Source of the DNA: an uncultured Prevotellaceae bacterium
GTDB lineage: Bacteria > Bacteroidota > Bacteroidia > Bacteroidales > Bacteroidaceae
Direction: 5' to 3'
Length of the DNA: 16,172 nt
NCBI GenBank assembly: GCA_902775075.1
Contig: CACYKX010000047.1
Coordinates: 1 to 16,172 of the forward strand
Within the stretch, counting starts at the first letter, position 1. Each line of letters opens with the position of its first letter. Below the pieces are notes generated by a model that saw nothing but the letters and a program-made list of their open reading frames with translations, searched no databases and was not told the origin of the DNA. Of this stretch, positions 7,528 through 10,053 are shown one piece after another. Both the position numbers and the translations under genes were made by a program.

Positions 7528-8667
7528 TTGAAAACAGATTATATTATAGGATATGATGCCAAGCGTATTGTTCGAAATCGAACAGGACTGGGCAGTTATG
7601 GACGAAACCTAGTCAATGCCTTGACACAGGTAGAACATCCCAAGGAGATGCTTCTGTATACACCGGATTCCGGATATGATGATTTGAGTCGTCAGATGAA
7701 ACTTTCAGATGGTGTCCGCTTTGTATATCCTGAGCATATTAATTTCCGTATTCAGAAAGATATGTGGCGCAATAAAGGTATCGTCAAAGACCTGAAACGC
7801 GATCATGTGGATGTCTTTCATGGACTTTCCGGTGAACTGCCTAAAGGATTGAAGAAGGAAGGTATCAGAGGACTTGTTACCATCCATGACCTTATCTTCC
7901 TGCGTCATCCTGAGTTTTACCATTGGATAGATGTTCAGATCTATCGTCGTAAGTTTCTGCGTACATTAAAAGAGGCTACAAGAATTATAGCGATTAGTGA
8001 ATGCACAAAACGGGATATTTTATATTATGGAAATTTCCCAGAAGACAAAATTGATGTTGTTTATCAAGGTTGTAGTAATCGTTTTAGAACTTCGGTGGAA
8101 GAGGAGATCTTAAAGCGTGTAAAAGAAAAGTATGCATTACCAGATAGATATATACTTAATGTTGGTTCTATAGAGGCCCGTAAGAACGTTCTTTTGGCTG
8201 TTAAGGCACTCTGTAAACTTCCTGAAGATATATCCATCGTTATTGTAGGAAAGCATACTAAGTATACAGATCAGGTGATGGAATATGCAAAGAAGCATCA
8301 GTTGACTTCGCGTGTACATATCCTTCACGGAGTTTCCAACGAAGATTTACCGGCCATTTATCATCTAGCAGAAGTCTTTGTATATCCATCTCGTTATGAA
8401 GGCTTTGGTATTCCGATCATAGAGGCTATCCAGTCTGGATTGCCTGTCGTGGCATGTACAGGCAGTTGTCTAGAAGAGGCTGGAGGTCCTGATAGCTTAT
8501 ATGTCGACCCAGATGATGAGAAAGCTATGGCTGATGCTATCCAAAAAGCATCAGAAGAGAAAGAAATACGTGTCAGAAAAAGTCAGGAATACATTCAACG
8601 ATTTGAGAATAGTAATCTAGCAAATCAGATGATGGAGGAGTACGATAAAACAATGAATGACGAGTAG
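7528..8667 (+). CDS. GT4-family glycosyltransferase (GT-B fold), TTG start
   Basis: This 379-residue cytosolic enzyme has the classic GT4 layout. The N-terminal Rossmann domain carries GYDAKRIVRNRTGLGSYGRN, the acceptor-side glycine-rich loop. The C-terminal donor domain has LNVGSIEARKNV and the E-x7-E motif with E291 and E299 in YEGFGIPIIEA, which contacts the nucleotide sugar. Relatives transfer mannose, glucose, rhamnose or similar from NDP-sugars with retention of configuration. The first codon appears to be TTG at 7528. No ATG occurs before the conserved glycine loop, so the start must be non-ATG or the protein would lose a core strand. It lies 11 bp after the acetyltransferase and is the last gene of the plus-strand unit. 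The palindrome array begins about 40 bp after its stop and may end its transcript. Confidence 0.87.
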   Translation: MKTDYIIGYDAKRIVRNRTGLGSYGRNLVNALTQVEHPKEMLLYTPDSGYDDLSRQMKLSDGVRFVYPEHINFRIQKDMWRNKGIVKDLKRDHVDVFHGLSGELPKGLKKEGIRGLVTIHDLIFLRHPEFYHWIDVQIYRRKFLRTLKEATRIIAISECTKRDILYYGNFPEDKIDVVYQGCSNRFRTSVEEEILKRVKEKYALPDRYILNVGSIEARKNVLLAVKALCKLPEDISIVIVGKHTKYTDQVMEYAKKHQLTSRVHILHGVSNEDLPAIYHLAEVFVYPSRYEGFGIPIIEAIQSGLPVVACTGSCLEEAGGPDSLYVDPDDEKAMADAIQKASEEKEIRVRKSQEYIQRFENSNLANQMMEEYDKTMNDE

Positions 8668-8709
8668 GAGGATATATTATTTCCTTCATAATCGAAGTTC
8701 TGCTGTTGG

Positions 8710-8816
8710 ATGTATTTATGTGCGTTCGATGTACCACGGCCGTGGTACAAGTGTGCGACGGTCGTGGTATAGTTGTGCGACGGCCGTCGCACACTTGTGC
8801 GTCGAACGTCATACAT
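8710..8816. repeat. Phased array of 18-bp palindromes between convergent genes
   Basis: Four 18-bp units start at 8731, 8753, 8775 and 8797, exactly 22 bp apart with 4-bp spacers (aagt, agtt, actt). Unit 1 (8731-8748, GTACCACGGCCGTGGTAC) and unit 3 (8775-8792, GTGCGACGGCCGTCGCAC) are perfect palindromes centred on CGGCCG. Unit 2 (8753-8770) is a hybrid with a unit-3-like left half and a unit-1-like right half. Unit 4 is degenerate. A 15-bp perfect inverted repeat (8747-8761 with 8784-8798) joins units 2 and 3. An outer frame pairs ATGTAT 8710-8715 with ATACAT 8811-8816, and CGTTCGA 8723-8729 with TCGAACG 8802-8808. The GC-rich patch contrasts with its AT-rich surroundings. It lies between the ends of two convergent genes, suiting a REP/BIME-like element or bidirectional terminator. 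There is no T-tract, so the role is inferred. Confidence 0.85.
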
Positions 8817-8847
8817 GAAATAATACCAGAAAAGATCAAATCATTTA

Positions 8848-10053
8848 TTAGTTAACATTATCTATGTCGTTATGAGATAACCGAGCATAGTCTTTAGTAT
8901 AGAGTTCATAGCACAATTTGAACCATACGATACTTACAGGGAGAGCACGTAAGGCGTATGGTTGGATGAGTCCCTTTCTCACAATTCTAGGTAATATATC
9001 ACTATTGCCCATCCCCGCGATGATAAACGCGAGTACCATCAAGGCAAGGTCCCATCTGCTACGTTTCCAGGGAGATACTGTATACCAGATGCATATTCCA
9101 GTCATCGCAATGATATATCCGCTCGACTCACTACCTGTACTGAAAAGTATGGTGAACATGAGGGTGGAAGCAAGTATCGTTTCACGGAAGGAGAGATTCT
9201 TGATTTGTTTGAATCTTAAGTAAGGCAACAAGAACATTACCATTCCAGGAATAACAAGCCATAGGTCGGAATAGGAATCGTTGCCGCTGATTCTACGTGC
9301 CATGCCTAGTAGAGATACATTCTGATAGATGGAGTCTGTATTCAGCCCATTCTTATTGACCAAACTTGGTAGCCAGTCTTGATATTGTTGGATAACATAT
9401 TCCGGACTACTGATAAGCATTGGTAAGACGAATAATATAGAAGTCCAAAATACCAATGAGAGAATAAATCTACCCTTATGTTTCGAGAAGAAAAAGAAGG
9501 CTAGTCCCATGACTCCATAGATCTTGGTCATGGTACCCAATACAATGAACAAGGCGGCCCATCCGTCTTTCTCTTTTTCGATCAGAAAGAATGAAGAAAC
9601 GATGATTGCCGCAATAGCCACGTTGAACTGCTGCATGAAGAGCGCATCTAAAAGAATAGGTGCGCAAAACCAATAGATAAAGTTTTTCTGATGATCGGTT
9701 AAGGTTGATTTCCAGATAACCCAATAAAACCACATGGACAGAAAAACAAGCCAGAATAAGAGACCTGCCCATTCGGGGAGTAAAGCAAATGGGGCAACAA
9801 CCATTGAGAATATAGGACCATAATAGTTGTAATCAAAATATTCTTTAGGATATGCCGCATAAAGAGATGTACCATTGATGGTGTGCCAGAATACACCTCG
9901 GAAAACCTTAAAGTTGTTGTCTTTGGATAGTTTCAGCATACCGATAAGGGCAAGAATGATCCAAAGGAATAAGGTGGTTTTCCTTTCTTTGAATATGGGA
10001 CGCATACAGAACATATTAATCTTCTGATATGCGATATTGAGTTTTTCTCTCAT
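8848..10053 (-). CDS. GT87 (DUF2029) polyprenyl-phosphate-sugar-dependent membrane glycosyltransferase
   Basis: This 401-residue, strongly hydrophobic protein has roughly ten membrane helices and a GT-C type layout. After the first helix (28-42) comes NNFKVFRGVFWHTINGTSLYAAYP, then YNYYGPIFSMVVAPFALLP, matching the first periplasmic loop of GT87/DUF2029 enzymes. Characterised members such as mycobacterial PimE transfer mannose from polyprenyl-phosphate-mannose on the outer side of the inner membrane. Many relatives have Asp where Asn47 lies here, so the catalytic acid may be elsewhere (D45 is near). It is the last gene of a minus-strand unit, 18 bp after the GtrB-like gene, which would supply its lipid-linked sugar donor. 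The pair plus GtrA forms a complete decoration route. The sugar and acceptor are unknown. Confidence 0.78.
   Translation of the reverse strand: MREKLNIAYQKINMFCMRPIFKERKTTLFLWIILALIGMLKLSKDNNFKVFRGVFWHTINGTSLYAAYPKEYFDYNYYGPIFSMVVAPFALLPEWAGLLFWLVFLSMWFYWVIWKSTLTDHQKNFIYWFCAPILLDALFMQQFNVAIAAIIVSSFFLIEKEKDGWAALFIVLGTMTKIYGVMGLAFFFFSKHKGRFILSLVFWTSILFVLPMLISSPEYVIQQYQDWLPSLVNKNGLNTDSIYQNVSLLGMARRISGNDSYSDLWLVIPGMVMFLLPYLRFKQIKNLSFRETILASTLMFTILFSTGSESSGYIIAMTGICIWYTVSPWKRSRWDLALMVLAFIIAGMGNSDILPRIVRKGLIQPYALRALPVSIVWFKLCYELYTKDYARLSHNDIDNVN

Follow-up and report, generated by a model that had tools for sequence, protein, structure and literature searches.

The window analysed here, 16,172 nucleotides from an uncultured Prevotellaceae bacterium (positions 1 to 16,172 of contig CACYKX010000047.1, assembly GCA_902775075.1), carries an array of short phased palindromes in the gap between two convergent glycosyltransferase genes. 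The upstream gene, on the plus strand (7528..8667), encodes a glycosyltransferase of family 4 / group 1 (PF00534, PF13439), and the downstream gene, on the minus strand (8848..10053), encodes one of family 87 (PF09594). Judging from its sequence, the window comes from Segatella (Prevotella) albensis or a near relative. One of its glycosyltransferases is 99% identical to the counterpart in S. albensis DSM 11370, and the nearest genome compared, of the S. albensis type (G001), has 33% of the window's 31-letter words in common with it and is 99% identical to the array region across 131 bases.

The array spans positions 8729-8816 and consists of four unstranded units whose starts (8730, 8752, 8774 and 8796) are separated by a step of 22 bp. 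Unit A (8730..8749) and unit C (8774..8793) are perfect 20-bp palindromes, TGTACCACGGCCGTGGTACA and TGTGCGACGGCCGTCGCACA respectively, each of which is the same in five of the six copies of the G001 type. Their common core, ACGGCCGT, occurs in the window at 8736 and 8780 only. Unit B (8752..8771) is a hybrid, with a left half that resembles unit C, a right half that resembles unit A, and six of ten pairs. Unit D (8796..8815), which a preliminary description of this DNA overlooked, is weaker, again with six of ten pairs, and stands in phase with the others. That description had correctly recognized the 22-bp step, the two perfect palindromes with a shared core, the hybrid between them and the lack of further cores in the window, and the 15-bp alternative stem that it proposed (8747-8761 with 8784-8798) is exact. 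It also placed an outer inverted frame around the array, which consists of short pieces only: in the left flank (8710..8729, unstranded), ATGTAT (8710-8715) faces ATACAT (8811-8816), and CGTTCGA (8723-8729) faces TCGAACG (8802-8808) within the fourth unit.

The phased palindrome score of the array is 23 for three units and 28 for four. When the entire window was shuffled 200 times with dinucleotide content preserved, no shuffle reached these values at period 22 (maxima of 20 and 23), and they also lie above the maxima of 21 and 25 reached at any period from 12 to 40 in 50 shuffles. When regarded as a candidate iteron- or parS-like site, the window array exhibits repeated sites at a fixed helical phase, every 22 bp.

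A degenerate pattern of the unit (at most 3 mismatches) is found at 25 places in G001, compared with 5 places for a control pattern, and 22 of the 25 fall by position into six arrays, all located between main ORFs. Their settings were assigned from ORF lists and Pfam matches. The array at the window site lies in a convergent gap and that on C26 in a tandem gap. The C8 array is flanked by yebC and a 135-amino-acid ORF without a Pfam match, and the C7 array has a tRNA on one side and the gene of a P-type ATPase on the other. The two other arrays are in divergent gaps, one at 327 kb of C1 between ruvB and a transporter gene, and one on C3 between genes for an integrase and an HU-HIG protein, where a spurious-looking 84-amino-acid ORF overlaps the array. 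A preference for convergent gaps, which the preliminary description had raised as a question, is therefore not supported, with one copy clearly convergent, two possibly so, one in a tandem and two in divergent gaps. At the C26 site, repeated genes for glycine-rich proteins (PF12810; L034 1-1021 and 4776-5923) surround the array, together with direct and inverted repeats.

Four of the six copies (C26, C8, C1:327 kb and C3) have about 166 bp in common, bounded by short inverted ends of the form (A)AATGTA...TACATTT. These ends are not shared by the window copy. By eye, the window and C7 copies have only the array in common with the others and no flank, and the window-type left flank (8710-8729) is absent from the other five copies. 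Among the four related copies, units A and C are identical in all six pairs, whereas identity ranges from 68 to 86% in the left flank (50 bp) and from 59 to 91% in the right flank (22 bp). The palindromic units of the dispersed copies are better kept than their flanks, although recent spread or gene conversion could be an alternative source of this conservation. The four related copies carry their hybrid units at fixed places, and therefore the hybrids were inherited and do not require recombination between palindromes, the route by which such arrays had been proposed to grow. Some reshuffling did take place in the window copy, as its hybrid units occur in another order: its unit B matches unit D of four other copies when reverse-complemented (mean 18.5/20). 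No target duplication is evident by eye in the G001 copies or at the ends of the elements of genome G107 discussed below.

The C3 array lies about 155 bp upstream of the HU-HIG gene (L037:3203-3799), and no HU gene is present among the examined neighbours of the other five G001 arrays, including that of the window. Neither a DUF3874 match nor a close VapE protein was found in G001, and therefore its arrays are not fed by an element of the vapE type described below. A tyrosine integrase gene beside the C3 array (L037:1674-2867) was considered as a partner and set aside, as none of nine Pfam-tested ORFs from other HU loci, which represent part of the neighbours, is an integrase. Searches of plasmids and phages gave no match to the 221 bp of the C3 copy, and an exact 18-base core of unit C is likewise without a match in viral contigs.

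Beyond G001, a sequence-only profile built from 21 three-unit stretches was applied to 398 Prevotella genomes and detects arrays in 37 of them with an E-value of 0.01 or better. Among the matches listed, at least 14 of these genomes hold three or more array places, and all such counts per genome are lower bounds (13 candidates were scored in each). The palindromes thus recur both in G001 and in its relatives, in agreement with the earlier proposal of a dispersed repeat family.

In G107, a search with one end repeat, followed up at the individual loci, recovered 15 elements bounded by clear inverted ends of roughly 50-70 bp. Twelve of the 15 contain the array, with the caveat that eight of the 15 were originally picked for their arrays, and three more (L234, L235 and L236) have unpaired ends. 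One element, L113, carries both a vapE and an HU gene between the same ends as the short elements and represents a related, fuller element, and the array is kept in 11 of the 14 elements that are too short for both genes. L245 resembles an internal deletion of L254 in which most of vapE is gone and the ends and array are kept. The end repeats are hairpin palindromes whose sequence differs between clades. Across the 12 array-bearing elements, mean identity is 0.92 in the array versus 0.54 in the 110-bp flanks on each side, and the array exceeds the flanks in all 66 pairs, where the flanks may in part be non-homologous.

In elements of about 2.4 kb in G107, G376, G220 and G056, the array separates two divergent genes. 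Pfam assigns one of these main ORFs to a VapE-like helicase that ends in a DUF3874 tail and the other to an HU-HIG protein; neither is a transposase. Hairpin inverted ends bound elements L113 1011-3404, L133 984-3386, L129 1059-3391 and L125 867-3402. DUF3874 helicases as such are common (236 of 398 Prevotella genomes), and close relatives of this VapE (at least 76% identity) are confined to 6 of the 398, all with an HU gene and an array, the latter reaching only p 0.09 in L190. All six of these genomes also hold an array detected by the profile (p 4e-7), a result that is not fully independent of the profile input, which came partly from arrays of G107, G155, G188 and G220 (four of the six genomes recovered).

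At an E-value of 1e-90, 30 vapE loci were collected from 27 of the 398 genomes. The best palindrome period upstream of the gene is 22 in 27 of the 30, comprising 26 in the main test, which would not have revealed ties with longer periods, and L216, whose array scores 21 at period 22 once the gene start is corrected, against at most 16 for other periods from 15 to 30. Significance is p 0.05 or less in 24 loci, with values of 0.09 for L190 and 0.06 for L197. An HU gene is present in each of the 27 loci with period 22 and in none of the three array-less loci (L201, L215 and L218), where a profile search of all ORFs detected none; the sequence of L201 and of L218 stops close to a contig edge. Unit sequence varies widely among these loci, with 13 different central hexamers in 26 loci (for example CGGCCG, CGAACG, CCAAGG, CTTAAG and TATATG), whereas spacing and dyad symmetry are kept. 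In the ACTTAAGT clade the HU gene lies beyond vapE, far from the array, and in two loci of this clade (L205 and L213), as well as in L197 with its other unit sequence, HU falls outside the mapped inverted repeats. A search for the ACTTAAGT clade gave matches in 9 of 12 genomes, six of which have array places on contigs other than that of vapE. In L215 (1407-3024, G031), vapE lies within inverted repeats of 81-82 bp (81% alike), and neither an array nor an HU gene was found in the locus.

The same design accompanies HU-HIG genes of the G001 type that have no vapE partner. Relatives of the G001 protein at 33-38% identity occur at 12 places in 10 of 299 genomes, G001's own included, and arrays of other sequence lie upstream of such genes. 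Three places were left out of the period test (L286, no ATG; L287, little upstream DNA; L284, partial). Nine loci could be tested; six of them have 22 alone as best period and one has it in a tie, with p 0.05 or less in five of the nine, and the last unit of these seven arrays is 122-207 bp from the start codon; L289 and L290, both among the seven, are closely similar copies of a single locus. The best period is a different one in L288, where HU is without an array, and in L291, where it is 30 and four units nonetheless stand 22 bp apart by eye. A further, truncated copy in G198 (L295) has a best period of 17 (p 0.06). A 22-bp tandem repeat of 4.9 copies (L289 3167-3273, G046) adjoins the palindrome array of the same period in that locus.

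Genomes with arrays and genomes with G001-type HU genes coincide in 6 of 10 cases (p 1e-4), or 5 of 9 without G001 (p 6e-4), given 30 array genomes among 299, where the genomes numbered up to G299 were taken as the draw. Six relatives of the G001 HU protein at 88-97% identity are present in the protein collection. An upstream test of HU-HIG loci more generally gave a result for 18 of 29, as no ATG start was identified for 11, and these other loci (ten genomes, mostly shorter proteins of 75-182 amino acids) reveal no convincing array except L301, which is L289 again. Among them, the AT-rich L305 has 22 as sole best period (p 0.01), L326 has a tie (p 0.02), and L329 reaches p 0.01 at 22 yet has a best period of 16. 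HU-HIG-type matches are numerous, up to 65 per genome, with a model that recognises ordinary HU as well; the 65 matches are in G349, many of them in open frames of about 150-160 amino acids.

Five Bacteroidales records outside Prevotella were also examined. A best period of 22 without ties (p 0.01-0.02), together with a divergent HU-HIG gene, is seen in L222 (Phocaeicola massiliensis), L223 and L224 (Bacteroides finegoldii). An array precedes vapE in Parabacteroides distasonis L226 (p 0.01), where a profile search of the 7.1 kb covered detected no HU gene, whereas Bacteroides L225 has an HU gene and no clear array (p 0.139). Of the 55 loci entered in this test, 20 were removed for too little upstream DNA and 3 as repeats of the 30-locus set. 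At 27-35% identity and with enough upstream DNA, 27 distant loci were available; a profile search found no HU-like ORF in 26 of them, some of which are short enough that an HU gene farther off could escape, and in these 26 a period of 22 is never the sole best (3 ties). The 27th, L159 (G080, about 435-520), has an array of its own sequence upstream of a distant vapE, scoring 20 at 21 bp versus 13 at 22 bp, and a partial HU-like ORF at the locus edge. The step is therefore nearly, and not strictly, 22 bp. Together, the findings on L222, L225, L226 and L159 strengthen the link to HU and weaken the case for a strictly fixed step of 22 bp.

Structural models of the two proteins were compared with known folds. 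The HU model (pLDDT 88.9, pTM 0.57) matches HU/IHF proteins in its N-terminal part, and its C-terminal domain retrieves ribosomal eS25 chains lower in the list with weak E-values. The eS25 protein has a winged-helix fold, and in the G001 HU protein Pfam likewise recognises Ribosomal_S25 weakly. The HU-HIG family was reportedly defined in 2017. The VapE model (pLDDT 86.2, pTM 0.78) has as its top Foldseek match 7pds, which is PriRep1 bound to dsDNA (E 4.8e-15), and its conserved GxxKST and DEFD motifs, which by eye correspond to Walker A and B, point to an active ATPase.

A multi-copy family thus exists whose design sits ahead of vapE genes that have HU nearby, or ahead of HU genes. The recurrence of the array at the same step in nearly all relatives, the retention of its dyads while unit sequence changes, and the link to HU-HIG support a binding platform for a dimeric protein, a role that the preliminary description had raised and that is now the best reading, in putative form. 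A DNA-bending protein probably docks on the array, and we infer that this is the cognate HU plus winged-helix protein. Each 20-bp palindrome would be bound by one dimer through its winged helix, and the step of two helical turns would place all dimers on one face of the DNA, such that the HU domains could bend the array into a single compact nucleoprotein complex. Next to an HU gene, the array may regulate that gene; where vapE is present, it may mark the site of helicase loading or assist it. On balance we consider it likely that the window array is an orphan copy, that the master copy lies upstream of the HU-HIG gene, and that this putative platform for the cognate protein was scattered by MITE-like elements, with orphan copies presumably still bound in trans. 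As far as the association goes, the protein that reads the array could be HU or VapE; L226 combines an array and vapE with no HU found in the sequence covered. Counter-cases to the HU link are L226, L225, L288 and L291, and the ACTTAAGT clade, where HU is far from the array.

A more ambitious proposal, which we offer tentatively and judge rather doubtful as a whole, is that these loci constitute a new class of Bacteroidales transposon-like elements, with clade-specific hairpin inverted ends, a VapE helicase of the self-loading type, in most cases accompanied by an HU-winged-helix protein, and without any recognised transposase. The array would then be an initiation or assembly site, and orphan arrays would be the trail of helicase-driven, perhaps replicative, movement, some of them kept as chromosomal docking sites for HU.

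A less likely alternative to the docking platform is that the array is a passive part of MITE-like elements, needed in cis for their movement or amplification and without a role at the window site. The G107 elements fit this possibility, in that 12 of the 15 hold the array, among them 11 of the 14 too short for both genes, as do the deletion-like L245 and the four G001 copies with common sequence and short inverted ends. Against it, the window and C7 copies have by eye no flank in common with the other copies, the window's units A and C are unchanged all the same, and no target duplication is seen by eye. An improbable alternative is that the array acts as RNA, with hairpins through which the transcripts of the two convergent glycosyltransferase genes are terminated or stabilised. 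As plus-strand RNA it folds strongly (-66.8 kcal/mol, z -7.95) and it lies in a convergent gap, but there is no terminator-like site (a stem followed by a T run) on either strand at 8500-9000 and no Rfam match at arrays in the sources scanned, two of the six G001 copies are in divergent gaps, and RNA hairpins do not require a nearly fixed step with changing sequence. It is most improbable that these are REP palindromes moved by a RAYT-type tyrosine transposase, a reading raised in the preliminary description. Dispersed intergenic positions and hybrid units speak for it, and PF01797 (Y1_Tnp) is found in 4 of 8 genomes tested; against it, PF01797 has no match in G001 (99% complete) or in 3 of the 7 others, and units A and C, perfect over 20 bp, have by eye no unpaired GTAG/CGTC tag at one end. 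A known defence system was likewise unsupported, with no PADLOC match for four proteins, as were an intrinsic terminator and an Rfam RNA.

The docking platform favoured here can be compared with several described systems. REP palindromes, in the portion of the account drawn upon (PMC3733652), are marked on one side by an unpaired tag, GTAG or CGTC; they are short and intergenic like the present palindromes, which differ in the lack of a RAYT match in G001 and of a one-sided tag, in their regular phasing and in their HU-HIG partner. The BrickBuilt MITE of Porphyromonas gingivalis, a related organism, is also dispersed between genes, and its tandem repeat of 23 nt, variable copy number and, in some cases, inverted ends resemble the arrays. 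As far as the relevant sections of that report describe it (PMC4596501), BrickBuilt is built of direct 23-nt repeats, from 1 to 22.8 in number, and has IS5-like ends of 12 nt without any mention of dyads, descriptions that set it apart from three or four palindromes spaced nearly always by 22 bp and linked to HU-HIG or vapE. PINSR, a 188-bp repeat of Prevotella intermedia, is likewise a dispersed, noncoding, intergenic Prevotella repeat, whose origin is unexplained in the passages considered (PMC4755523); its 177-184 copies without terminal inverted repeats distinguish it by description, and P. albensis DSM 11370 was tested by PINSR PCR and is not among the four species there reported as positive. 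Staphylococcal replication modules (Cch2 of SCCmec, PMC7581432, and PriRep1, 7pds) place a mobile-element helicase of the same fold beside repeated DNA sites, as here. On the available part of that description, the present arrays differ in having dyads at two-turn spacing and HU-HIG as the usual partner, and in G001 they occur with no such helicase found.

In a search of open-access literature, we found no report of phased arrays paired with HU-HIG or vapE, and no function assigned to the pair of DUF3874 helicase and HU-HIG protein. The arrays offer this pair a concrete and testable candidate DNA target, whose geometry hardly changes between clades whereas its sequence does. With them, the way in which HU-winged-helix proteins recognise DNA could be tested directly, as could the possibility that these elements are mobile without the help of a classical transposase. 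Finally, an array of another type was encountered by BLAST in G201 (L044 1490-1595), in which GTACCACGGCCTGGTAC is repeated and the centre is of odd length.
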